Part shown: positions 1 through 31,798 of the stretch, piece by piece
How the letters are laid out: the number at the start of each line of letters is the position of its first letter
Numbering within the stretch: position 1 is the stretch's first letter
NCBI GenBank assembly: GCA_014904985.1
Contig: MU129225.1
Span: 15,711-50,325, forward strand
DNA length: 34,615 bases
Direction: 5' to 3'
Origin: Hydnum rufescens UP504
Taxonomy: Eukaryota > Basidiomycota > Agaricomycetes > Cantharellales > Hydnaceae
The notes under the pieces: model-generated
Told to the model about the DNA's origin: nothing
Seen by the model: only the letters and a program-made list of their open reading frames with translations
The model's database searches: none
Translations under genes and position numbers: made by a program

Positions 1-79
1 AGACCAAAACCTGCCGCACGACGAGGGCCTGAATGGCAAGAGCCAAACCAAAAGAAACGACGGACCGTGGCCCCAGGAA

Positions 80-225
80 CCACATGCCCGCTGCGGCAGG
101 CGTGTGGTACTATTTAAAGTGAGTTCCCCCCCCCCAATAGATACCATGGCGCAAAAGAGCAGCGAAAGCTGCTCTTTTTGCGCAGGTTTTAAAATTCTTA
201 CTAACACTTTCATTTACTCCTCTAG
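80..225 (+). repeat. Module 1: exon-end hairpin and intron-like segment
   Basis: Hairpin A 80-107 (stem with one mismatch, UGCG loop), donor GTGAGT at 119, intronic hairpin B 149-183 with GAAA loop, branch TTACTAACA at 198-206, acceptor TCTAG ending at 225. All signals intact; intron 107 nt. The following exon starts GCCAAGCTGTCCC, as does the exon after module 2. Confidence 0.75.
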
Positions 226-345
226 GCCAAGCTGTCCCACCCACGAACGAACACCCCGCATACGACCACGTGAATGGAAACACGCGAACGAACGAACAGC
301 GACAACGCCCACAGGAAGCCACGAAGAAGAGCAGGAAAACAGAGG

Positions 346-477
346 CCACACACCCGCTGCGGCGGGTGTGTGGCAATATAAGATATGTAATTCTTTTTAA
401 TAGCTCCAGTCGCGCAAAAAGAGCAGCAGTCGCTGCTCTTTTTGCGCGACTTTTGAATTTTAACTAAGTTCTTTCAG
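346..477 (+). repeat. Module 2: exon-end hairpin and intron-like segment, donor altered
   Basis: Hairpin A 346-373 (UGCG loop). Expected donor reads AG/ATATGT at 383, a G-to-A change at intron position 1. Hairpin B 409-450 is a perfect 19-bp stem with loop AGTC. Branch TAACTAAG near 461-467, acceptor TTTCAG ends at 477. Confidence 0.7.
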
Positions 478-735
478 GCCAAGCTGTCCCAACCCAATGC
501 GCAAACCCACGCAGTCGGGGGCCCAAACCGCCCACCCGCCAGTACGCCAAAGAACCCCCCCCCGAATGACAAGGCCCGATCGGCCAGGACCCCAGCGGCA
601 ACCCGTGAACCATGAACACGCCAAATGAAACCCAACCAAACAGACCCAGCCAAACAAAACCGCGCCAAACCGCACGACGCCATACCCAACGAAACAACGC
701 CAAACGAAAACGCGCCACCCGAGTGGCCATGCGAA

Positions 736-876
736 CCACACACCCGCTACGGCGGGTGTGTGGTAGTATTAGGTACGTCTCTAATCCCACCGGTGCCAAA
801 AGAGCAGCAGAAGCTGCTCTTTTGGCACCTCTGTTTTCTTTTTTTTACTAATGTATTATTATTTGTTGTTCTCTAC
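736..876 (+). repeat. Module 3: exon-end hairpin and intron-like segment, acceptor lost
   Basis: Hairpin A 736-763 (UACG loop), donor GTACGT at 773, hairpin B 792-829 (17-bp stem GGTGCC.../...GGCACC, loop AGAA), branch TTTACTAATG at 844-853. The acceptor position reads CTCTAC instead of CTCTAG at 876. Confidence 0.7.
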
Positions 877-978
877 GTGAAAACCCACCCGACGAGCACA
901 CGGACGAGCCCCAGTACGCGCAGTCACCCAAGCCCAGAGTGCCCGCCCCTGAACACGACGATCGACGAAATCGCGTAT

Positions 979-1137
979 CACACACCCGCTGCGGCGGGTG
1001 TGTGGTAATACCTTGTAAGTTTTCAAGTATAGGACGTAGGAAAGCACCAAAAGAGCAGCAGAAGCTGCTCTTTTGGTGCTTCCTTTGTTTTTTTTTTTTA
1101 AATTAACGTGTTATTTACTGATTGATCCGCCTCCCAG
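979..1137 (+). repeat. Module 4: exon-end hairpin and intron-like segment
   Basis: Hairpin A 979-1004 (UGCG loop), donor GTAAGT at 1015, hairpin B 1042-1081 (18-bp perfect stem, loop AGAA), branch ATTAACG about 1103, best acceptor CCCAG ending at 1137; the usual TAG is missing, so the 3' end is uncertain. Confidence 0.65.
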
Positions 1138-1251
1138 CGCGAAAACCCCCTGCAGAAAAAAGGGACGTGCGCAGCCACCCGCAACCCGCAACCCGATCCA
1201 AGAGTCCAGCGCCCGAACACCCGCACGTACGCAACGACGGATGAAATACGG

Positions 1252-1393
1252 TACCACACACCCGCTGCGGCGGGTGTGTGGTAATAGCTCGTGAGTTTCT
1301 CGTACAACGGCGCCCAAAGAGCAGCAGTAGCTGCTCTTTGGGTGCTGCCTCTGTTTTTTTTTTTTCAAACTAACGTTTTATTGATTATTCTAG
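1252..1393 (+). repeat. Module 5: exon-end hairpin and intron-like segment
   Basis: Hairpin A 1252-1283 (UGCG loop), donor GTGAGT at 1291, hairpin B 1310-1345, branch AACTAACG about 1368-1375, acceptor TTCTAG ending at 1393. Intron 103 nt, all signals intact. Confidence 0.75.
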
Positions 1394-1501
1394 GTCTCTC
1401 CTCGATGCACGAAACCCCACCTAACAAGAACACTGATGGAAAACCGATGTGGCAGCCACCCGCAACCCGATCCAAGAACCCGCGACCGCGAGCCAAAACG
1501 A

Positions 1502-1650
1502 GTACCACACACCCGCTTCGGCGGGTGTGTGGTACTACAAGGTATTTTTATTGTATTTTCTATATCTACAGTGGCGCGGAAGGAGCAGCCCAAGCTGCTC
1601 CTTTGCGTCACTTTGAAATTTTTTTTTATGAATGTATGCTATTATTTTAG
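1502..1650 (+). repeat. Module 6: exon-end hairpin and intron-like segment
   Basis: Hairpin A 1502-1535 with C(UUCG)G loop, donor GTATTT at 1542, hairpin B 1571-1611 whose lower stem changed to GGAAGGAGCAGC / GCTGCTCCTTT, largely keeping pairing. The branch is weak (TATGAATG); the acceptor TTTTAG ends at 1650. Confidence 0.7.
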
Positions 1651-1742
1651 GATTCAAATTCAAGCCCCCGAAATGACGACCTGCGACCCGCGACTCGTCC
1701 AAACGACCTGCCCAACGGTGAATCGTCGAGCCCAGCCCCCTG

Positions 1743-1918
1743 TACCACACACCCGCCCAAGCGGGTGTGTGGTGCTACTTAGTTTTTTTTTAATTTTTTT
1801 AATTTTGAGCGACAGTACCACACCTGCCCAAGCGGGTGTGGTGCTGCTAAGTAGTCCGTGTTTTTTCTTTTTGATTTGTATAGACAGTACCATACACCCG
1901 CTAGGATGGGTGTGTGGT
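1743..1918 (+). repeat. Three terminal hairpin-A remnants without introns
   Basis: Palindromes at 1743-1773, 1816-1842 and 1888-1918 keep the CCACAC...GTGTGG stem but are separated only by T-rich spacers, with no donor, hairpin B or branch site. The outermost hairpin of the complete foldback element (19608-19635) likewise lacks an intron, so this looks like a standard arm end. Confidence 0.65.
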
Positions 1919-1929
1919 GCTACTTAAAT

Positions 1930-2253
1930 TTTTTTTTTCATTTTGAGGGATGCATATAGGCCCAAGGTGTATATTGAATTTTTAAATCAATAAATCAATA
2001 AATAAACAAGTCAATGACCTGGGGATGTATAATATAAATAATTATAAATGGAACTATCCCCGGTATGCCCGTATGGCCCGCTGCAAGTCTGAGGTTCTCT
2101 AAGTCCCAGATTCGGCCAATTTTCGGCCAATTTTCGGCCATTTCGGCCAACTCTGGGCCACAAGGTGCAGACCGTAAAATGGCCATTTCGCCGGAATAGT
2201 GATGGGACCTACTTAGGTACCATTATCTGCCCCAAAAGTGGTACCTAACTAGG
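1930..2253 (+). repeat. Subterminal AT-rich segment and palindromic terminus of foldback-like element 1
   Basis: Contains TTTTTAAAT with aataaat repeats and ACAAGTCAAT, shared (inverted) with 19525-19590. A threefold TTTTCGGCCAA repeat lies near 2115-2145. The end is an imperfect palindrome: CCTACTTAGGTACCA at 2208-2223 and its partner TGGTACCTAACTAGG at 2239-2254. The terminal CTAACTAG equals the end of the complete element. No gene seen. Confidence 0.5.
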
Positions 2254-3466: not shown

Positions 3467-4202
3467 GGACTAATTATCTTTCCCGCCTACCCCGAATGGT
3501 GATGAGGGTGATCCCACGATGATGGGATCATCCTTGTTGCTGGCAATTTTGACCAGCCAAAGCCTGTGGCTGGTTCAAAAGGATAGACCTGTATGAAATT
3601 GCGAATAATGGAGGAACCTGGGCACCCATGCACACGAAATTTTGTGTGCATGGACTCCTGGGTTTCCTCCAACATATTATCCCTTCAGATCATGTGCCTG
3701 GTCCCTGTAGGCACCGGGCGCACATGTTTTTTTTTTTTGTGTGAATTCAATTTTGCATTTTTTTCTTTTGTAGTCGCTTCTTTGTAATGTAAAATAGAGA
3801 TAAATGCAAGGTACTGTGCTGCCCAATTAGCAGCCAAAAAGGCCTTGTAGCAGGCTGGAATATGCAAGTCCGAATGAACATGTGATTTCCAAATAAGGAA
3901 ACCCCGCTGCTTTTGAATGAGCAATGACTGCCCAGAGTGAATGGGGAGCCGCAGCGGGCTGATTTCTGGTGTACAGCCATCATTTGGGGCTGTCCGCCAC
4001 CCTACACAGTGACCCTGCTGCCGGAGGGGGTGGGCACCGATGGATGGTGGCAAGTTTTTTGGATGTAGTGGATGTAAATTATTTATTTGAATGGGTGATG
4101 ACCGATGCGCCTGCTAGCTGTCTTGGATGGAAATGAAGGTGGAAGCTGGAATGAATGTTGTCAGCAGAGAGTGAAGAGCTGAGGGGGGTTTTCATGGGGC
4201 CA
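3467..4202. other. Gene-free stretch with long palindromes
   Basis: No credible coding region. It holds imperfect palindromes, notably 3610-3670, whose inner stem CCATGCACAC / GTGTGCATGG is perfect and whose outer arms are GGAGGAA / TTTCCTCC. A T-rich tract at 3727-3740 follows. I see nothing else to name. Confidence 0.5.
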
Positions 4203-19203: not shown

Positions 19204-19247
19204 TGTCAACTAACCACCATTCAACTCAGTCAGCCACAAATGTAGGT

Positions 19248-19291
19248 CTAGTTAGATATTACGAGCCTTGCATTTATATAGTCTAACTAGA
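19248..19291 (+). repeat. Left terminal inverted repeat of the foldback element
   Basis: Begins CTAGTTAGATATTACG and ends with TCTAACTAGA; the interior TTGCATTTATAT is shared with the right end. The repeat is bounded by an inverted CTAGTTAGA/TCTAACTAG pair. Confidence 0.8.
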
Positions 19292-19299
19292 GGTTTTGA

Positions 19300-19720
19300 T
19301 GCTGGGGCCCCTGGGGCCGGCTAACCTGATTTCCGTGGTTCAGGCAGGGGCCCCCAGGGGCCCCTGGCTCTGAACTTAGAAAATGACCAGGGAGAAGTCA
19401 TATAGGAGGGGGTATCAGGATAGGTGCTGGAAGGCCTGGGAAGGCCCCTGAATGGGTCAGCGGGCTACACGGGCTTATCGGGCCAATCACAGTTATTATT
19501 TTCTCATTGTTTATGATGGGGAATCCCATGTTTCATTCTTATTGACTTGTTTATTATTATTTATTTATTTATTTATTTAAAAATTCACAGGAAACTACTT
19601 AGTAGCACCACACACCCACCCTAGTGGGTGTGTGGTACCTTCCCTTGCCTCATCGGGGGTTCAGTCAGTTTTCAAAGGGGGGGGATGTCACAGGCAGTAT
19701 CTATTGTATGATAACCTAGA
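19300..19720. repeat. Left subterminal region: GGGGCCCC palindromes, AT-rich repeats, no gene
   Basis: GGGGCCCCTGGGG (19304-19316) and its counterpart at 19346-19368 can pair. Then come about 200 bp without features, and ATTTATTTATTT repeats at 19556-19580 that match the outer part of element 1 (1979-2010, inverted). Confidence 0.6.
19608..19635 (-). repeat. Left-arm outermost hairpin A, no intron
   Basis: CCACACACCCAC / GTGGGTGTGTGG palindrome. No donor or hairpin B follows outward on the minus strand; the AT-rich subterminal region begins instead. Confidence 0.7.
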
Positions 19721-19880
19721 TTAAATAAGTAAAAATAAGATTAATATGTTAGTAAAGGAAAAAAATTCGAAGGGAACGCCAAAAGAGCAGCAGGTGCTGC
19801 TCTTTTGGCATCGTGGTACACCTCATAATCAAAAAAACTAACCTAATATTGCCACACACCCGCTTCGGCGGGTGTGTGGC
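19716..19880 (-). repeat. Left-arm module L6
   Basis: Minus strand: hairpin A 19880-19851 (loop CGAA), donor AG/GTTAGT at 19842, hairpin B 19811-19776 (GCCAAAAGAGCAGC / GCTGCTCTTTTGGC), branch TTTACTAACA about 19757-19748, acceptor ATCTAG ends 19716. Intron 127 nt. Confidence 0.75.
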
Positions 19881-20010
19881 ACCGTATTTGTTTCGTGTTT
19901 CGTTGTTGCGGAAAATCGAGGGTCGGGGGTGTGGGGGCAGCGTGGTCCTGTGTTTTGCTTTGGACCTGGTCTGTGCATTTGTCGAGTCGGATATCGGGCA
20001 GTGGAGATAC

Positions 20011-20156
20011 CTAGAATAATAGTATGTTAGTAAAGAAAAAAAAACAAAGGCAACGCCAAAAGAGCAGCTGGTGCTGCTCTTTTGGTGTCGTCGCACACCC
20101 GTAGGGGGGGAAACTCACCTAATATTGCCACACACCCACCGAAGCGGGTGTGTGGC
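20011..20156 (-). repeat. Left-arm module L5
   Basis: Minus strand: hairpin A 20156-20127 with C(UUCG)G loop, donor AG/GTGAGT at 20118, hairpin B 20088-20053, branch TTTACTAACA about 20034-20025, acceptor TTCTAG ends 20011. Intron 108 nt. Confidence 0.75.
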
Positions 20157-20291
20157 GCCGTATTTGTTTCGTCCTCGTATATGTTGCGGGAAGTCGAGGA
20201 TGGGGGGGTATGGGTGGCTGCATGGTCCCGTGTTTTGCCCTGGGCCTGATCTGTGCATTCGTCGGGTCAGGTGTCGCACGGTAAAATGTAC

Positions 20292-20441
20292 CTAGAATAA
20301 TGATATGTTAGTAAAGAAAAAAAATGAAGGCAATGCCAAAAGAGCAGCCGGGGCTACTCTTTTGGCGTCACGGTACACTGCGTAATAAAAAAAAAACTCA
20401 CCTACTAGTACCACACACCCGCCGAAGCGGGTGTATGGTAC
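20292..20441 (-). repeat. Left-arm module L4
   Basis: Minus strand: hairpin A 20441-20408 with C(UUCG)G loop, donor AG/GTGAGT at 20401, hairpin B 20368-20333 (one arm decayed), branch TTTACTAACA about 20315-20306, acceptor TTCTAG ends 20292. Intron 110 nt. Confidence 0.75.
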
Positions 20442-20481
20442 ACGATGTCCTCGTCAGGTGGTCTTCGCGGAGGGAAAAGAC

Positions 20482-20615
20482 CTAGAAGAACGATATAAAT
20501 ACATTAGTACAAAAAAAGAAAACAGAGTGCCAAAGAGCAGCTTCTGCTGCTCTTTTGGCACCAGTGGATTAGACATACCTAATATTACCACACACCCACT
20601 TCGGCAGGTGTGTTT
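20482..20615 (-). repeat. Left-arm module L3
   Basis: Minus strand: decayed hairpin A 20615-20588, donor AG/GTATGT at 20578, hairpin B 20561-20527 (GTGCC / GGCAC lower stem), branch TGTACTAATG about 20512-20503, acceptor TTCTAG ends 20482. Intron 97 nt. Confidence 0.7.
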
Positions 20616-20852
20616 GGAAAGTTTGGTTTGGCGGGAGCCGTTTGGCCGTGCTCGTTTGGCGGATTGTCGGTTTTGGCGGGCAGGTGGTGTTCGTATGGCG
20701 AGTTTTCGTTGGCGGGTGTTCATTGGGCGGGCGTTCGTGGGCGGGTGTTCGTGGGTGGGCGTTCGTTTCCCGGGCGTTTGTTGGTGGGTTTGTTGGGTGG
20801 GTTGGGGTCATGGGTTTGGCTATGCGGGTTCATACAGGTTTGAGTTCAAGAT

Positions 20853-21000
20853 CTAGAAAATAAATAATATTAGTTAAATCATTAAAACTTTGCAAGAAGA
20901 GCAGCTTATGCTGCTCTTCTTGCACCACAAAATAAAATAAAAATAACAAAAAAAAACAATTATATAGTACCACACACCCGCCACGGCGGGTGTGTGGTAC
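20853..21000 (-). repeat. Left-arm module L2, donor degenerate
   Basis: Minus strand: hairpin A 21000-20967, no clear GT donor (CTATATAATT), hairpin B 20924-20891 with AAGAAGAGCAGC / GCTGCTCTTCTT stem, branch TTAACTAATA about 20877-20868, acceptor TTCTAG ends 20853. The exon beyond it (20852-20616) is strongly depleted in T on the minus strand. Confidence 0.65.
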
Positions 21001-21161
21001 CATCGTTTCACTCCATGGCCACGCACCGTCCTGCTTTTCAGGTGGCGACTCTTGTTCGGGTAGGTCGTTATATGGGTCATCCCTGTTCTTACTGGCCTGG
21101 TGTCGATACCTGGGGCTGCTGGGGGTTTCGTGTTGCTATTTGTTCATGTGAAAGATGAGAC

Positions 21162-21303
21162 CTAGATTTAAACAAAAAGAGCATCAGTTAAGAAGTAAAA
21201 GCAGTGCAAAAAGAGCAGCTTTGCTGCTCTTTTTGCACTGTTGTAGCTATTCCAAAATAAAACTCACCTAGTGACCACACACTCGCAATGGCGGTGTGTG
21301 GTC
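21162..21303 (-). repeat. Left-arm module L1 (next to the centre)
   Basis: Minus strand: hairpin A 21303-21273, donor AG/GTGAGT at 21267, perfect hairpin B 21240-21202 (GTGCAAAAAGAGCAGC arm, loop AAA), branch TTAACTGA about 21191-21184, acceptor ATCTAG ends 21162. Intron 106 nt. Confidence 0.75.
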
Positions 21304-21304
21304 G

Positions 21305-22058
21305 TCTAGTTCCTGTTTGGCGGTTCCTTGTTGGGTGGTTGCGTAAGGTGCGGGAAAGAAACACAACTCAACACCGGCAATTGCCGGCATCCAAAAAGCG
21401 CCCAAGTGCGGCGTCACGACTACAGTATGAATTAGTAGCAAGTGACTAAATGTAGAATAAATACCATATAATTAAATATTTGTCGAAAGGAAATAAAGAG
21501 GCCATAACAATGAGTCAGAGTTCACTAAGGCATGCACATTGCAAAGTGGATTGGGCGATTTCTATGCTTCACAATCGCTTAAATTTAAATATATTGGTGG
21601 AATATATGTACCCTACATGGGCGATCAATTATTTCGGGCGCTCCCTCCCATTTTTCAATTTTCATACCTTCAATTCCCTAAATAGGGAATTGAAGGTACG
21701 AAAAATTGAAAAATGGAGGGAGCGCCGAAATAATTGATCGCCATGTAGGGTACATATATTCCACCAATATATTTAAATTTAAGCCGATTGTGAAGCATAG
21801 AAATCGCCCAATCCACTTTGCAATGTGCATGCCTTAGTGAACTCTGACTCATTGTTATGGCCTCTTATTCCTTTCGACAAATATTAATTATATGGTATTT
21901 ATTCTACATTTAGTCACTTGCTACTAATTCATACTGTAGTCATGATGCCGCACTTGGGCGCTTTTGGATGCCGGCAATTGCCGGCGTTGAGTTGTGTTTC
22001 TTCTCGCAACCACCACCTAACAGGGAAACCACCCAAAGAAGGAAAGATGACCACACAC
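21305..22058. repeat. Central 0.75-kb palindrome of the foldback element
   Basis: Long inverted repeat centred at 21681/21682 (TTCCCTA AA TAGGGAA), nearly perfect over about 320 bp on each side and recognisable to the first hairpin A of each arm. AT-rich, unlike the GC-rich exons. Includes a small nested palindrome CCGGCAATTGCCGG on each side (21374, 21971). Mirror-image frames of about 60-85 codons on both strands are a consequence of the symmetry; I do not call them genes. Its position between two outward-reading arrays would suit a bidirectional promoter; that is inference. Confidence 0.85.
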
Positions 22059-22190
22059 CCGCCGATGCGGGTGTGTGGTCACAAGGTGAGTTTTTTTATC
22101 GTAGTAGATACAACAGCGCAAAAAGAGCAGCGAAAGCTGCTCTCTTTGCACTGCTTTGAACTGTTTACTAACACAGCACCTTTCATATAG
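22049..22190 (+). repeat. Right-arm module R1
   Basis: Hairpin A 22049-22080, donor AG/GTGAGT at 22086, hairpin B 22114-22152 with GAAA loop, branch TTTACTAACA 22164-22173, acceptor TATAG ends 22190. Intron 105 nt, all signals intact. Confidence 0.75.
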
Positions 22191-22281
22191 ATCATGACCT
22201 GGTCCTAGGGATCAGCCAAACGATGAAGGCCCAACCTGCCAGGGCCCAAATAGACCACACCAGGCAACAACGCGAAAGGAA

Positions 22282-22375
22282 GACCGCGACAACGCGATGA
22301 ACACGACGAACGCGACGAACACGACGAATGCGACGAATGTGATGAACGCGACGACGACAGACAACAATGCGCCCA
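22282..22375 (+). repeat. CGACGAACA-type simple repeat in a right-arm exon
   Basis: Imperfect CGA/ACG-AAC triplet tract, almost without T on the plus strand at its start. The opposite strand reads as Arg/His/Val repeats, which I do not regard as a protein. Confidence 0.5.
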
Positions 22376-22394
22376 GTGAATGGCCGCACGAACC

Positions 22395-22532
22395 CCACAC
22401 CCGCTACGGCGGTGTGTGTTCTCTATAAGATGAGTCCCCCCCTCCAATATGTCCAGCCACGCAAAAAGAGCAGCGAAAGCTGCTCCTTTTGCGCTGGTTT
22501 TAATTTCTCACTAACGTAAAGATTTTTTCTAG
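22395..22532 (+). repeat. Right-arm module R2, donor altered
   Basis: Hairpin A 22395-22418 (UACG loop), donor position AG/ATGAGT at 22430 (G to A), hairpin B 22453-22497 with GAAA loop, branch CTCACTAACG 22507-22516, acceptor TTCTAG ends 22532. Confidence 0.7.
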
Positions 22533-22762
22533 ATTATCCCCTGCCCTACAACCAATGAAATGAAGAACCACCCAACAAGAACGAGCGGAACGGACCCCCA
22601 CCAAACAAGGACCCGCCAAATGAACCCCAAACCCCCCGAAACGACAGCCCATGACACGAACGCGTGCCAAAAGCCACACGCCAAACGAAACCCCCGCGAG
22701 TGAAGGACCACCCCACCAGCAAAGACACAAAGTGACATGAAGCCAACAAGTGGCCCCAGGAA

Positions 22763-22890
22763 CCACACACCTGCTGCGGCAGGTGTGTGGTACCACAAGA
22801 TAAGTTTTTTATTTTTTATTTTTTTGTGGCGCAAGAAGAGCAGCGTAAGCTGCTCTTCTTGCAATATTTAATGTTTATTTATTCTTCTAG
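22763..22890 (+). repeat. Right-arm module R3, donor altered
   Basis: Perfect hairpin A 22763-22790 with CACCTGC / GCAGGTG stem and UGCG loop, donor position AG/ATAAGT at 22800 (G to A), hairpin B 22831-22862 (GCAAGAAGAGCAGC arm, GTAA loop), branch decayed, acceptor TTCTAG ends 22890. Confidence 0.7.
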
Positions 22891-23092
22891 CTTTTGGACT
22901 CGCACCCACATGAACCCCCAACCCAAACCCGCCGAGCGAAACCCCACAACTGCGACCCCACCGAATGAAGACCCGGTGAGCAAAACCCACCTGAAGACAT
23001 GCCAAATGACCCACCCCCCGACAAAGAAAACTGCGAAAATGCGACCAGCGTGACCACGACAGACGACAACGCACACAGCGAACGGCAGCACG

Positions 23093-23232
23093 AACCACAC
23101 CTGCTACAGTGGGTGTGGTTCTATATAAGGTGAGTCCCCCCCAATATATACAGTGGCGCAAAAAGAGCAGCGTAAGCTGCTCTTTTTGCGCTGCCTTTAC
23201 TTCTTTACTGACCGACTTTTTTTTTCTATTAG
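23093..23232 (+). repeat. Right-arm module R4
   Basis: Hairpin A 23093-23120, donor AG/GTGAGT at 23130, hairpin B 23156-23191 with GTAA loop, branch TTTACTGACC 23204-23213, acceptor ATTAG ends 23232. Intron 103 nt. Confidence 0.75.
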
Positions 23233-23331
23233 GTCTTCACCTTTCATGCGAGCGAATACCGATGCAAGAACCCCACGACCCGCATCTCGAAACCCGGCTG
23301 ACCATACACGGGGAATATAAAGTACCACACC

Positions 23332-23455
23332 CGCCGCCACGGGTGTGGTACTACAAGGTGAGCTTTTTTTATTAATCCTGTGGTGCAAGAAGAGCAGCAT
23401 AAGCTGCTCTTCTTGCAAAGCTTTATTTTCTAACATATTGTTTTTTTTCCCCTAG
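23332..23455 (+). repeat. Right-arm module R5
   Basis: Short hairpin A 23332-23351, donor AG/GTGAGC at 23358, hairpin B 23384-23417 (TGCAAGAAGAGCAGC arm, ATAA loop), branch TTTCTAACA 23427-23435, acceptor CCTAG ends 23455. Intron 98 nt. Confidence 0.75.
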
Positions 23456-23579
23456 ATCTTGGACTCGAATCCGCATGAACCCCCGACCCCAAACCTGCCA
23501 AACGAACACCCGGCAAACGAAGATCTGGCGAGCCGAACCCCGCGACCCACCCCACAACCCCAAACCCGGGGAACCAAGC

Positions 23580-23667
23580 CAAACCCCCCCCCCCACATGA
23601 AGGTGAGGCTTTTTCTTTGGCTGTGATCGCGCAAGAAGAGCAGCCTCTGGCTGTTCTTCTTGGGCGC
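23580..23667 (+). repeat. Right-arm module R6, degenerate
   Basis: Hairpin A replaced by a C-run; donor AG/GTGAGG at 23603; hairpin B 23629-23667 with several mismatches; no branch or acceptor recognised before the AT-rich subterminal repeats at 23700-23750. Confidence 0.5.
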
Positions 23668-23840
23668 ATGGGTGAGTCCCACTGGGCGAGCCTATCATTG
23701 TATATAATAATAGTAGTAGTAATAATAATAATAATAAATAAATAAATAATCCATGGCTAGGGGCCCCAGGGGCCCCTGGGCTGCTTGACCAGCCCCCTTG
23801 ATTGAATTGCAGGGGCCCCTGGGGGCCCCCGGGTCTGATA

Positions 23841-23884
23841 TCTAGTTAGACCATATAAATGCAACCTTTGAAGTATCTAATTAG
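23841..23884 (-). repeat. Right terminal inverted repeat of the foldback element
   Basis: Inverted partner of 19248-19291, including the ATATAAATGCAA core and TCTAATTAG end. Preceded by GGGGCCCC palindromes at 23760-23832 that mirror those at the left end. Confidence 0.8.
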
Positions 23885-23942
23885 ATACTGATAATTGGCT
23901 GACCAGGCTGCCACCATTGCAGTTCCACAAAAGTATAACTTA

Positions 23943-26415: not shown

Positions 26416-27420
26416 GTCGCCAAAGAGAACTGGGCTACAATTGAATCAATGTATGACTTTTGCAATAATCGGATCGTTCGTAATTCGCGGTCCCATTCGA
26501 TTTTAATGCTGAGTAGCCAGTGAAGTGGCCCTAAGTCGGTAATCGGGTATTTGTCGTTAATCTTCTGCTTGTATTCATCAAGTAATGCCCTCAACGGGCC
26601 TGTAAATGTGCAATCGTCCACATGGATTGCGAGAATGAGCTCCTCCCCATTCACTTGGGTATGGAACACACCCGGATCGGCATGGCTAGCCCTGAAACCG
26701 ATATCATTAAGGGCGCACAAGAGGGAATCATACCAGCATCGCCCGGCCTGTTTGAGACCATATAGGGTCTTCTGTAGTCGTAGAATCGTGTCTTTTTTCT
26801 GGGGTTTATACTCAGGGGGAAATGCATATAGATTTCTTCATTTTCATTGAGTTCACCATTGAGGTATGCGCCATTGAAATCGAAAGAGTCGATATCCCAA
26901 TCATTTCGTGTGGTGAGTGCGATAATCGTTCGAAAACTTGCAAGTCACACGACAGGGGAATACATTTCATAGTAGTCAACTCCAAAGATTTGAGTAAAAC
27001 CACGGGCAACTAGATGTGCCTTGTATTTTAGAATGGTGCCATCGGCTTTCCGTTTGATTTTGAAGACGAGTTTACAATCGACAATGTTTTTGTCGGGTGC
27101 TCTTGGGACTTCTTCCCAAGTTCCAGCATCTTCAATGGTCTTGAGCTCGATATCTATAGCTTGTTTCCATTGTGGCCAATCCATTCGTGACTTGGCCTCT
27201 TCCAGGGATTTTGGATCTCTGTCTATATCTTGAATGGTCGCAAAAGCCACGTCATTAAATTCTATATGATAGATGGCGTCATTTAGGAGAGATGCTGAAT
27301 TCTTGCCGATATTATCACTGCTCCCCCTGACGCCGGGGATCTGAGAGTCAGATTTGTGTGTGTATCCATGAACTGTCCCTTCGCCCTGTGCAAGGTGTTG
27401 CACATATTGAGATGGTTTGG
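26412..27420 (-). pseudogene. Copia reverse transcriptase domain (broken)
   Basis: Starts in the long frame 27946-26945 (WKQAIDIELKTIEDAGTWEEVP, KLVFKIKRKADG, AHLVARGFTQIFGVDYYEMYSPVV), is broken by TGA at 26945 (CGA expected before LASFRT), continues with DSFDFNGAYLNGEL and IYMHFP, where one C of a C-run seems lost (frameshift near 26820), then TLYGLKQAGRCWYDSL and LAIHVDDCTFTG in 26720-26412. VDD is the catalytic box, and DFNGAYLNG holds the first catalytic Asp. Same family as integrase upstream and RNase H downstream. Confidence 0.85.
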
Positions 27421-28741
27421 GGACACGTGTGGAGCGTTGTTCAGGTTCAGCGGGTGGGGTCTGTTTTGGCATAGGAGGGGGTTCGGTGGGGGTAGTTGGC
27501 CTAGAATTTAGGGTTTTGTTGTCATCTGAGTCTTTGGGATCTGGAGAGTTGTTGTTGGTTGGCAGGGGATCTATCCGCAGCCTTGGGCTCGTAACTGGGG
27601 GATCGACAGAAATGTCAATTGTTGAGGTAGTGAATTTTACATTACATTCGACAGAAATTTTGTTCCTTCCCTTCCAGTAAACCCTATGAGCATGTGGGCT
27701 ATCATTATCATAGCCCACCCAGAAGGCCTCATTCGCGCATTCATCAAGTTTTGATCTGGAGTCGTTATGAACCCAGACTCGTTGGCCCCAAATAGGGATA
27801 TTCACGAGGTTCAGCTTTTCCTTTGTAAGCCGTTCGAGTGGCATCATGTGGCCTAAGACACGCGTAGAGGTACAGTTTTTGAGCCAGATGGCCCAATTCA
27901 CAGCCTTGCCCCAGAGATTTTTCGACAATTGGGATTGATGTAACATAGCGCAAGTTCATTCAAGAATCCACCGATTCAGTGATTCAGCAACTCTGTTGTG
28001 CTGGGGAGTATCATGGGTGGTTAATCGGCGCTCTGTGCCCTGATCCCCTAGAAACTTCATGAATGCATGACTTGTGTATTTGCCTCCACGGTCAGATCGA
28101 AGCCATTTAATTTGGACTCTGTGCTGCGTCTTCGCCCAAGCTGTGAAGTCTTTGTAGGCATCGAGTGCCTCATCCTTCGTACGTAATAGTCGAAGCTTTG
28201 TATATCTCATGGCGTCATCTGTAAATGTGATGTAATATGAGTGCCCGCCTAAGGAATTTAGGGGTGATGGCCCCCAAATGTCTGTGTGAATTTCCTTGCC
28301 GAATGAGGAGGTGAGTGGGGCTGTCCGCTCTTTCTTGATGGCCTTCCATGTGGCCTTGGCATACTCGCAGGAGTTGCAGGAAAAATCCTTGATGTCATCA
28401 ATTAGGTCAATGCCCTCAATAACGTTGTTTTTGATAAGCATGCGTATTGTATCGACCGAAATATAGGCCAATCGTCTGTGAAGATCCAAGAGCTTCACCG
28501 TCTCACGTGCAATTGTAGCTGCCAAATTAGCGTGTTCAACTTTGTATAAGCCATTATCGCTGCCAGTGATGCATCCAATAAGGACACCTTTCGGGTTTTT
28601 GATTTTGCACAAGTTTCCGTCGAATAGGACTTTGTGACCCACTTTCATAATTTGGTTTATTGAAATGACTGTTAATCCGAGTTCTGGAGCATGGAGGGCA
28701 TCGCGCAAGATGACTGGGGTGAATTTCCCGTCATTCAGCAC
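27421..28741 (-). pseudogene. Copia integrase domain (broken)
   Basis: 28741-27956: GAG-pre-integrase region with LLDLHRRLAYIS and CNSCEYAK (HHCC-type zinc finger in which the second His appears as Tyr), then HTDIWGP, LRSDRGGKYTS and NRVAESLNRWILE giving the D, D, E catalytic triad. A TGA at 27958-27956 (CGA expected) interrupts before TCAMLHQSQLSKNLWG. The C-terminal part in 27946 onward continues with FWVGYDN and a Pro/Ser/Thr-rich linker (SVDPPVTSPRLR, PTTPTEPPP) into reverse transcriptase. Confidence 0.85.
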
Positions 28742-28780
28742 TTGAATCTTTAAGTCGCTGGCACCAATAGCATGGAATAC

Positions 28781-29094
28781 TCAGTTATTAGCTGCAAGGA
28801 TTGGGTGAGGGTCGATAGGATGGTAATTAATGAATTGCTCCTTATATGGAGACATGTGTCGGGTGGCCCCTGAATCATATATTTCGGCATAAGCAGGGGA
28901 TTTCATCTGTTCGTTCATTGTTGCCGCGATATCTGGCTGTGGCCCAATGGCCTCGATTGTTGCCCATGCCTCAACGTCAGCATGTGCAGCTGCTGAGGTG
29001 CTTTCCTTAGCACCCGTCCTAGAGTTCAGCGATCCATGGGGTCCCTGGCCTTCCTTTCCTCCCCCTTTCACCCAACAGTCCACTTTGAAGTGTC
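28781..29094 (-). pseudogene. Copia gag C-terminus and aspartic protease
   Basis: After the solo LTR the frame resumes at FKVDCW, completing the gag zinc knuckle, then GGGKEGQGP and a spacer, then AEIYDSGATRHMSPY, where DSGA is the aspartic protease active site. A TGA at 28783-28781 (CGA expected, NN-R-VFHAIGASD) separates it from the integrase frame. The protease would cleave the gag-pol polyprotein. Confidence 0.8.
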
Positions 29095-29684
29095 TGTCAG
29101 GGTTCGCCCCCAACTCCAGTCTACTCCGGTCAACTCCGGTCCTCGTCCGCCCACCTCCAGTCCGGTTCTCCACTTATTTCCCTCGCCCAAGTCCACTTTG
29201 CTTCCGGCTTGATTCCGGTTTGACTCCAGTCCAACCCTATCTTGGTTTCATTTCCTTTTCATTTCCCTTTCATTTCCCATTGCTTCCGGTTCACCCCCTG
29301 GCCGAGTTCCTGTTCCTGTTCCTGTTCCTGTCCCCCTTGTAACCACCTCCAGTTTAGCGATCACTCCCCCGTAGTATAGTCATCATGTATAAGTAGTCCG
29401 AGAGCGAAGTCCAGAGACCCCAGCTTTGGTCTCTCAGGATTTCCGCTGTTACTCCGGACTACAGGTCCGAGTATTTTCCAGTTGACTCCGCGAGCTTAAG
29501 GACCGCTGTGCTCGTTTCCGCCTAGTCCCTTCCGGGCTGCTGGATTGCCTCTCCGTCCCCTCCTATCTTCGTTATCTCATTCCTGCCCGGATTCTCTCGG
29601 ACTTAGCCGGACTTACACCGGACTTAGCCGGAATTATCTGTGTTTATATTTGTTTGGTGCTCTCGTCGCAGCGTGGCCCTGACA
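29095..29684 (+). mobile_element. Solo LTR, 590 bp, inside the copia gag zinc knuckle
   Basis: Starts TGTCAGGGTTCG and ends GTGGCCCTGACA, flanked by GTGTC on both sides (29090-29094 and 29685-29689). TG...CA ends with a 5-bp duplication are the mark of an LTR left after recombination. Orientation taken as plus from the TATA-like TGTATAAGTAG near 29384. Contains CTCCGGT and GGACTTAGCCGGA repeats. It splits the zinc knuckle CFNCH...KGH / FKVDCW. Confidence 0.85.
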
Positions 29685-30234
29685 GTGTCCCTTTCAGTGG
29701 CAATTGAAGCACTCAACATCCTTCTTGCTCTTCCTTTGCCCATTGGCATGGAAGGCCTCATCGTTATTCGATTTGGACTTCCCCTTCTTCAGGGTTCGCC
29801 AGTCATACTCATCTGTCATGAGGCGGATTACCAGAGTCAGCGTAATAGACTTGCCACTGAGATCCGTGGCAGCCATAATCGAATTTAACGTATGAGTCGG
29901 GAAGTGATCCCAATAGAATGTTTCCGTATTCTTCATCCAGAATAGTGGCACCCATGGCTGCCAACTGCTCTTTAAGATCGGACAATTTGTCGAAGTGTGC
30001 ACAGACATCGTCATCCACACCGCAGCGAGTATTCTGTAATCGCTTTCGTAAGTCAACCAAAATTAACTTCAACCATCCTTCGTATAAAGCCTGGAGCTGA
30101 TCCCAGACCTCCTTGGCTTTTAGTCCAGCCTTAATCTGGCTGAACACCATATCGGGGACCGAGCTGGCCACAAGTTGCTTAACCATGGCCTCATCCTTCT
30201 TCCATCGAGCCTCTGGCATAAGTCCATCGACCAT
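29685..30234 (-). pseudogene. Copia gag, central part
   Basis: 30252-29809 reads GLMPEARWKKDEAMVKQLVA, VFSQIKAGLKAKEVWDQLQ and a coiled region to GSLPDSYVKF; a frame change near 29880 leads into DEYDWRTLKKGKSK and KDVECFNCH, where a TGA (29696-29694) sits inside the zinc knuckle before KGH. This is the copia gag (nucleocapsid precursor) type common in fungi and plants. Confidence 0.75.
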
Positions 30235-31798
30235 TGTGGAAGATAAAAACATCCAGTATCAGAAAATGTGAATATCCATTGATCCCAGCCATTGGAATGA
30301 TCATGTGACCTATTAAAAAATCTATTACGGCTACACACAGAAATCGAATTCATTCTATAACTCCATCAGTTTTGATCGGAAAGGTACGCCCATATAACTC
30401 TCGGAAAGCCACGATTCATACCTCTCGAATGGTACCAAACACAAGTCGAACAGACCAGAAATGCACTCTCCAGACCAATATTACTGTCAAAATTCGGGAT
30501 TTTCAGTAAAAAACGAATTTCTCCATCAGTTCGCATTCAATCCTCTCGGAACAACCGCTCCTGGAAAGATATAAAAAATCCGCATTCAACGGTACCGAGC
30601 ATGCGAAGAACAGATCGAAACTGAACTCTACAGAACAATATTACTATCAGAATCAACACCCATCAGTAAAAAATGAATTTCTCTGTCAGTTTACACCAGA
30701 TCTGCTCAGAACCACCGCGCCCAGAAAGCTGTTAAAAATCCGCATTGAATGATATTAAGAACGTCTACTACATATGTAAACTGTTGTTTCTGCATCGAAT
30801 CCCATCCCATGCACTTGTCCCATTACCAACCAGCAACAAAAACATCTTAACCACTGGACTACAAACAAATTAATCTCCAAGAACTCGGAAATATCCTTTG
30901 ATTTCATCTTCCATTGCCACAAATAACTTCTAGAACCTCACAGATAAGAAAGATAACACTCCCTTGACTACCCTTTTGTTCTGTTTATGAATGACTCACC
31001 CTCCTTGCAACCACTTTATGAAAGATAACACCTTCTTAGCAACCCTTTTGTTCTGTTCATGAATGACTCACCTATCTTGCAACCACTTTATGAATGACTC
31101 ACCCTCCTTGACAACCCTATTGTTCTCACATATGACTCACCTAGGAGTGAGTCATATTCTTTAAACACAGCCACCTTCAGAAAGGTATAAAAGCTGGTAG
31201 ATTTTCCTGTATCCCCCCATCATCTTCTCACTACTGGAATACACTACTGTCTACAAATCTGCTTGCATCTGAAGAGAGTACTGATCTGAAAAGCCATCTG
31301 GAGCTAAGTCATATACAAGGTTGTTAAGACTAAGTCACTGGAAGCCCACTATGCGAAATACTGAGCCAAGGATAGTTGCAGGACCTAAGGTTAGAGTTGC
31401 TGGACATCCAAGGAAAGGTGAGTGAAAACAAAGTTAAGTCAGAAGAAGAGAGAAACACATTGACATACTAAATCAAGCTTAAACTAGTCCATAACCCTCT
31501 TTAGAATTCGCATTTTGACCAGGAGGACACAAATAGGTACCCACAAATAGCAGTAAACAGTTCAATGCAACACATATAAGCCTTTCACAAGCATCCCACA
31601 ATATATCATTGACTATAGTTAGTCCATACCATCGCCTTACCATCACTGAATACCATACACAACTTGTTAGAGAGTGATCAACCATCAGAGCGAACCAGCC
31701 CATTGAATAAAAACAGAAATACAGTCTCCCATCTACACACTGGCTGAACCAGAGTTTGATTTGACAGTCATTGGAGCTCCCAATCCTTCTTCTATACC
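30235..31798 (+). mobile_element. LTR-like non-coding element, copy 2 (1.56 kb), inside copia gag
   Basis: Full-length match to 14756-16216. It splits gag between ...SDYSAAGT and VDGLMPEARW; the join suggests that only about 3 bp (ACC on the plus strand, 30230-30232 and 31796-31798) are duplicated, though boundaries are uncertain. Three internal repeats of 160 bp (landmark CTCYRTCAGTT at about 30361, 30521 and 30681). Longer than copy 1 mainly because of a duplicated block at about 31010-31110 that adds TGACTCA sites. Minus-strand frame 31703-31479 corresponds to that of copy 1. Confidence 0.75.
30992..31202 (+). promoter_or_regulatory. Putative promoter of LTR-like copy 2: five bZIP-type sites and TATA box
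   Basis: TGACTCA at 30992, 31064, 31095 and 31133, TGAGTCA at 31148, TATAAAA at 31196-31202. Copy 1 has three such sites, so a block duplication has added two here. Confidence 0.5.

Follow-up and report, generated by a model that had tools for sequence, protein, structure and literature searches.

A foldback transposon of Hydnum rufescens whose arms are tandem arrays of hairpin-framed, probably spliced introns

In the basidiomycete Hydnum rufescens UP504, we describe a foldback transposon of 4689 bp in which both inverted arms are built from tandem intron-like modules, each framed by hairpins. The element occupies 19222..23910, without a strand of its own, of the stretch analysed here (the window, 34,615 nt of contig MU129225.1, positions 15,711-50,325), and we searched for its relatives in the whole genome (63.2 Mb, 539 contigs). 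Judging from its sequence, the element is, in our opinion, rather probably moved by a transposase of the Kyakuja-Dileera-Zisupton (KDZ) type and composed of two divergent non-coding units, each carrying up to six tandem hairpin introns that would be removed by the spliceosome. More tentatively, and with our own doubts outweighing our confidence, such elements may represent a novel kind of mobile DNA, the "spliced-arm foldback", which would be selected for splicing and would use divergent palindromic promoters and tandem self-folding introns to make its transcripts acceptable to the host; the number and quality of the introns would then set the escape from silencing and the spread through a genome holding thousands of modules.

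The borders of the element are common to copies at unrelated sites, and an 8-bp target-site duplication, CCACCATT, lies directly outside them at 19214..19221 and 23911..23918. Ten copies, with the window copy counted, had both ends inside the fetched stretches; among these two-ended copies, 8 of 10 carry perfect 8-bp duplications, the sequence being different in each, and the misses are L014 and L024. Long inverted arms of short repeated units, together with a target-site duplication at both borders, are the features of a foldback (FB)-type element. The preliminary description had already recognised a foldback transposon at 19248-23884; the type was right, while the comparison of copies extends the borders by 26 bp on each side.

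The element contains 12 intron-hairpin cores (at most two mismatches), six per arm. The units follow a constant order, in which an exon-end hairpin of the form ACCACACACCCGC..GCGGGTGTGTGGT is succeeded 3-14 nt later (mode 8) by a donor, then by an intron hairpin of the form ..AAGAGCAGC NNNN GCTGCTCTT.., a TACTAAC-like branch site and a TTCTAG acceptor. When branch sites were scored as CTRAY, 8 of the 12 modules proved complete by sequence, having a donor, a branch site and an acceptor, with predicted introns of 97-127 nt. On the plus strand, these are R1 (22086..22190, 105 nt, exon-end hairpin 22048-22081), R4 (23130..23232, 103 nt, exon-end hairpin 23092-23121, branch CTGAC) and R5 (23358..23455, 98 nt, exon-end hairpin 23321-23352); on the minus strand, L1 (21162..21267, 106 nt, branch scored as CTGAT), L3 (20482..20578, 97 nt), L4 (20292..20401, 110 nt), L5 (20011..20118, 108 nt) and L6 (19716..19842, 127 nt). 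The other four are R2 (core 22467..22486, plus strand), which has a branch site and an acceptor and reads AT instead of GT at the donor; R3 (core 22837..22856, plus strand), with the same AT donor and the branch site lost; the outermost right module R6 (23603..23657, plus strand, core 23637), with a donor and hairpin and neither branch site nor acceptor; and L2 (core 20898..20917, minus strand), with an acceptor at 20853 and no GT donor. It had been claimed that at least 12 modules each bear the full set of signals; the number 12 holds and completeness extends to eight of them, including those whose predicted intron ends had been placed at 22086/22190, 23130/23232 and 20118/20011. In the window element, 7 of the 12 modules were oriented by the exon hairpin and the others by direct reading, and modules that can be oriented by this hairpin point outward from the central palindrome in 9/9 two-ended copies, just as had been proposed. 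Some of the left arm is arranged as a 280-bp tandem repeat of the units.

For a wider survey, modules were selected by their two hairpins alone. This yielded 237 cores in the fetched loci, of which 74 without a recognisable exon hairpin were excluded before the counts; the remaining 163, oriented by the exon hairpin, formed 51 groups at 80% identity. The full combination of donor, branch site and acceptor was present in 38 of the 51 non-redundant modules, compared with a mean of 0.58 and a maximum of 3 in shuffles, and in 1 of 51 on the reverse strand. Introns were called in 115 of the 163 oriented modules, with a length of 92-128 nt (median 106) and the consensus AAG/GTGAGT, TACTAAC, TTCTAG. 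GT-AG ends with the branch site and acceptor at normal spacing, which would class the introns as U2-type, were found in 115/163 oriented and 38/51 non-redundant modules. In an alignment of 48 modules with a mean column identity of 50%, the most conserved of the 120 columns outside the hairpins are mostly splice positions, namely the A (48/48) and G (46/48) of the acceptor, the T (48/48) and G (42/48) of the donor, +5 G (44/48), +6 T (45/48), and the A and T of the branch site (46/48 each). Three of the 51 were excluded from this alignment (a terminal module that has no acceptor, a near-duplicate carrying a deletion, and a module interrupted by other DNA), which slightly favours the splicing reading.

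The splice positions also change slowly when copies of one module are compared. Mismatches outside CpG amounted to 8/1103 (0.7%) in splice columns and 32/2804 (1.1%) in the intron hairpin, compared with 214/6742 (3.2%) in other intron sequence and 68/2025 (3.4%) in the exon hairpin; the exon rate of 798/7785 is too high, as the grouping took no account of exons. This test drew on 10 groups with at least five members, of which one had no splice columns and four had only nine. The difference between splice columns and other intron sequence gave p=3.6e-7, a generous figure as the copies share ancestry, and out of 5000 column draws matched by base and group, none was as low as the splice columns. 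According to the preliminary description, free drift of the splice signals alongside preserved hairpins would speak against splicing; no such drift was seen in the comparison, where the splice columns, together with the intron hairpin, were the slowest-changing class. The constraint on the splice signals between copies points to selection for splicing, and these signals have probably been kept for working as splice signals, now or until recently.

With regard to the hairpins themselves, compensatory changes, which alter both partners and preserve the pairing, are seen in 13 of 25 predicted pairs, and the core GAGCAGC/GCTGCTC is nearly fixed. Among same-module copies (L009-L025), the exon-hairpin loop occurs in reverse-complement forms (TTCG 5 and CGAA 5, in one cluster of 14), and the intron-hairpin loop was found inverted once as GAAA/TTTC and once as GAA/TTC. 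Such flips between same-module copies suggest DNA-level hairpins or template switching as well.

Modules of this kind are abundant in H. rufescens. The exact intron-hairpin core occurs at 3766 sites genome-wide and one exact form of the exon-hairpin core at 1441 sites, each compared with 0 for a reversed-pattern control; the window holds 12 matches to the exact core, 7 of them inside the element, compared with 0 in 100 window shuffles. A hairpin half followed by the reverse complement of an AGGTRAGT donor matched 932+903 times (1835; control 2+0), and the search for CTAAC and TAG after a hairpin half gave 611+647 matches (1258, a few of them overlapping; control 3+3). Two seemingly solitary cores (C1:444895 and C2:7609) and a seeming pair (C2:323562) turned out, in 3/3 cases among the 3766 sites, to lie in arrays with degenerate neighbours.

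Between the arms lies a near-perfect central palindrome (21356..22002). Its arm pairs are 21356-21396/21962-22002 (98%), 21394-21475/21884-21965 (98%), 21496-21589/21773-21866 (95%) and 21577-21620/21741-21784 (100%). The halves face outward as conserved promoter-like blocks, and across 37 aligned halves from the window element and its relatives they retain a TATATTTAAATTT-like stretch, GCCCAATCCAC and CTCTGACTCA; we predict from this pattern that the palindrome acts as two divergent, back-to-back promoters. At the outer side of the arms, clusters of AATAAA offer possible poly(A) signals at 23733..23746 (plus strand) and 19550..19577 (minus strand). Such repeats lie past the last right-arm module, 170-201 nt from the right end, in 8/9 two-ended copies, and in the left arm, 326-376 nt from the left end, likewise in 8/9.

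The exons between the predicted introns (n=74) have a median length of 190 nt and are A/C-rich, with length remainders 0/1/2 distributed as 25/32/17, and 42 of the 74 contain stops in all three frames. Over 35 arms, the longest open stretch has a median of 124 aa with the introns removed and 120 aa with them in place, so splicing does not lengthen it. Coding exons were therefore judged unlikely, and the RNA product of the arms is most likely non-coding, because the exon frames are mixed and splicing leaves the open stretches no longer. The earlier inference of outward transcription and multiple splicing into a non-coding RNA is in keeping with the constrained splice columns, the apparently non-coding exons, the promoter-like block and the AATAAA clusters. 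The other suggestion made at that time, that host transcripts splice the element away, does not fit, because transcription from either direction always meets the first arm in antisense and reads only the second in sense, so that the exons of the latter would stay; this argument is drawn from the module layout, without a separate scan for cryptic donors.

The ends of the element connect it to a longer, coding relative. The left terminal stretch (19222..19366, plus strand), which starts with CAACTCAGTCAGCCA and contains GGGGCCCC palindromes, agrees base for base, over about 145 bp, with the left terminus of a long element at locus L028 that carries a 560-aa open reading frame (ORF), P0001, without a Pfam match. 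The first 80 bp of this end are 98.75-100% identical in L027, L029 and L030. The right terminal stretch (23831..23910, plus strand), ending in TGGCTGACCAGGCTG, is matched at 90% over 73 bp on contig C374, about 1.5 kb past the ORF of a KDZ transposase (PF18758, E 1.9e-44). Over 15.3 kb, C374 carries in order the left end, P0001-like ORF pieces, CxC1, the KDZ transposase and the right end (6.4-14.5 kb of the contig unread), and the sequence linking the KDZ ORF to the right end is found again in L016, there too with a right end. Since its termini match a longer element that lies, at one locus, around a KDZ transposase, the window element is likely a non-autonomous KDZ-type foldback element. Its 8-bp duplication agrees with the length in Zisupton, the CA..TG ends of Kyakuja are a further point of likeness, and the C374 relative resembles KDZ elements in having CxC1 and KDZ domains; Kyakuja differs in its 7-bp duplications and its lack of terminal inverted repeats (PMC12730594). 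As hAT elements have 8-bp duplications as a rule (PMC12730594), hAT was considered as an alternative partner on these grounds.

Several further observations concern the coding relative and rearranged copies. The GGGGCCCC palindromes are subterminal at both ends (19300-19370 and 23756-23840) and are common to the coding relative. Pfam searches with P0001 and eight other ORFs of L020, L027 and L028 returned a single match, a retroviral SH3 domain in L020 only. The 560-aa ORF has 93 matches in the genome, many of them fragmentary, and the KDZ transposase family is very abundant genome-wide (584 first-look candidates, 150 scored, 154 matches). At L040:3446-3886, a right and a left end are oddly arranged within an exon of another array, and the flanking 8-mer ATGAAAAC is once inverted, perhaps through an insertion followed by an inversion. 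L015, L020, L026 and L016:676-1736 are shortened or rearranged relatives in which only end pieces of the element or of the coding relative are kept.

We propose that each half of the palindrome would start one outward RNA, which would end at the outer AATAAA cluster, fold locally module by module and then lose its introns. The intron hairpin may draw the donor and branch site together for short-intron recognition, folding reducing some 106 nt to about 70; the hairpin at the exon end would leave the donor free. The element itself would likely be moved in trans by a KDZ-type transposase. Splicing could pay if well-spliced RNA were exported and tolerated, and unspliced or stalled transposon RNA were degraded or made into small interfering RNA (siRNA); this is the least certain part, taken by analogy from Cryptococcus, in which introns promote export and expression and limit R-loops, and a spliceosome-coupled complex turns poorly spliced transposon RNA into siRNA (PMC5851062). 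A well-spliced array would be let through by controls of this kind, and the module array would then serve as a splicing licence under which the element stays transcribed, open and mobile. The weakest step of this model is the reason for which selection would favour splicing in a non-coding transposon.

A number of observations weigh against this model. In the window, 4 of the 12 modules are without some splice signal (R2, R3, L2 and R6, three of which have no GT donor), and the AT donors of R2 and R3 are also present in the sister copies L012 and L013, meaning that this lineage spread without those donors. In the 48-module alignment, column 130 (T 44/48) is among the best-conserved and lies outside any splice signal, and the mismatch rates of the splice columns and the intron hairpin are not significantly different (p=0.29). 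The wobble test for folding at the RNA level, which would appear as an excess of G.T over A.C mismatches on the sense strand, was null for the intron hairpin (G.T 26, A.C 21, p 0.56) and for the exon hairpin (G.T 43, A.C 38, p 0.66). A stop-free frame occurs in 32 of the 74 exons, a slight excess over shuffles (mean 22.7, maximum 31), the copies not being independent. A genome-wide search for an intron-less copy, using one 23-base junction pattern from two left-arm modules with at most two mismatches, returned 0 matches. The public gene model P0028, from a 143,818-bp contig and matched by exact 5-residue words to locus L065, counts on both sides: in favour, one of its junctions coincides exactly with a module donor and acceptor, and against, it reads through the intron hairpin of another L065 module (from 1702); such a junction documents the choice of a gene finder and does not show splicing. 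Copy L024 is without outer AATAAA clusters on both sides. Finally, the KDZ link comes from one locus, C374, where the flanking 8-mers differ and the locus's own duplication was not seen, and at C56, C137 and C106 no two ends formed a matching pair.

Four alternative readings were considered. The hairpins might act at the DNA level, as binding sites of the transposase or a host factor or as recombination sites, with the splice-like signals carried along as passengers in the unit that is repeated. Foldback elements usually contain arrays of short repeats; moreover, the stems are strongly conserved with compensatory changes and no excess of G.T over A.C, and the TTCG/CGAA flips of the exon-hairpin loop are expected from DNA cruciforms or template switching. 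We nevertheless regard this explanation as unlikely, as constraint on the splice columns outside the hairpins is close to that on the stems of the intron hairpin (0.7% vs 1.1%), the full set of signals is one-stranded (38/51 vs 1/51), and an ordered donor, branch site and acceptor are not needed by binding sites. A different role, to which we assign a low probability, would be that recruitment of the spliceosome blocks RNA:DNA hybrids in a transcribed palindromic repeat, the spliced product being irrelevant. It is introns and spliceosome-dependent packaging, rather than splicing itself, that were reported to prevent R-loops (PMC5851062). The arms are indeed rich in palindromes and hairpins and their exons are A/C-rich, but the branch site and acceptor, needless for early-spliceosome binding alone, are about as fixed as the donor.

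Two further alternatives concern the origin of the modules. They could be the tandem-amplified relic of a multi-exon host gene, perhaps partly coding, with no present function in splicing. Transposons often capture exons and introns, and the 280-bp tandem repeat of the left arm and the slight surplus of stop-free exon frames would agree with such a capture; however, the exon length remainders are mixed, splicing adds little to the open stretch (124 aa against 120), and relics should not keep splice columns fixed where column identity is 50%, leaving this origin improbable in our view. It is very improbable that the modules are introners, spreading singly as new introns into host genes. Sequence-similar repeated introns on DNA transposons are a mark of introners, but the 3/3 fetched places of the 3766 sites lie in arrays rather than as scattered single introns, and the modules carry an exon-end hairpin and an exon (median 190 nt) instead of being bare introns. 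The likeness to introners is that many similar spliceosomal introns are moved by a DNA transposon; an introner, however, becomes one intron at one gene position, whereas the Hydnum introns stay with their exons in tandem inside the element.

Among known systems, the nearest precedent found is the foldback-like Tm1-HH/Cg-1 of root-knot nematodes (PMC3169594). Like the Hydnum element, Tm1 is non-coding, with long composite inverted repeats, target-site duplications and a transposase-coding relative with common termini, and the non-coding Cg-1 RNA, drawn with exons and introns and an RNA-processing hairpin, resembles the predicted arm RNAs (PMC3169594). Tm1 differs in that it is Mutator-like, makes 9-bp duplications and has a single histone-type hairpin, placed between the repeats (PMC3169594), whereas in the Hydnum element the arms are intron arrays that diverge from a palindrome and have two hairpins per unit, the duplications are of 8 bp and the partner is likely of the KDZ type. 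The [D1,2] stwintrons of Xylariales are likewise repeated U2 introns of fungi, their ends brought together by near-terminal RNA stems, but they are nested and lie in host genes, not in tandem arrays in transposon arms (PMC12403724). For KDZ elements, the portion of PMC12730594 covered holds no foldback derivative with intron arrays. Foldback arms of tandem introns were also absent from the open-literature matches listed, a coverage that leaves out most subscription papers.

Elsewhere in the window, the right part of a second module array occupies 1..2010 (plus strand), with six cores, three intron-less exon-type hairpins (near 1742, 1815 and 1888, each followed by T-rich DNA) and A+T-rich DNA with AATAAA. 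A broken Copia-type retrotransposon lies at 26945-30252 on the minus strand, with gag, pre-integrase, integrase, SH3 and RVT_2 in separate ORFs. The window gave no Rfam match at gathering thresholds and 0 ARAGORN predictions, and a near-match search of plasmid records found no match. In viral contigs, 20 stretches matched, each at one palindromic site and on both strands; our guess is that these sites are chance matches or phage terminators.

Taken as a family, these DNA transposons hold thousands of hairpin-framed introns without evident coding capacity, and their splice signals are among the most constrained sites. Because donor-bearing and donor-less modules adjoin in otherwise similar copies, the family would permit a direct test of splicing-coupled silencing. 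If the arms are spliced, they would constitute, within the genome of a mushroom, a natural experiment on the way in which foreign RNA is protected by splicing, as well as a source of ready-made introns.

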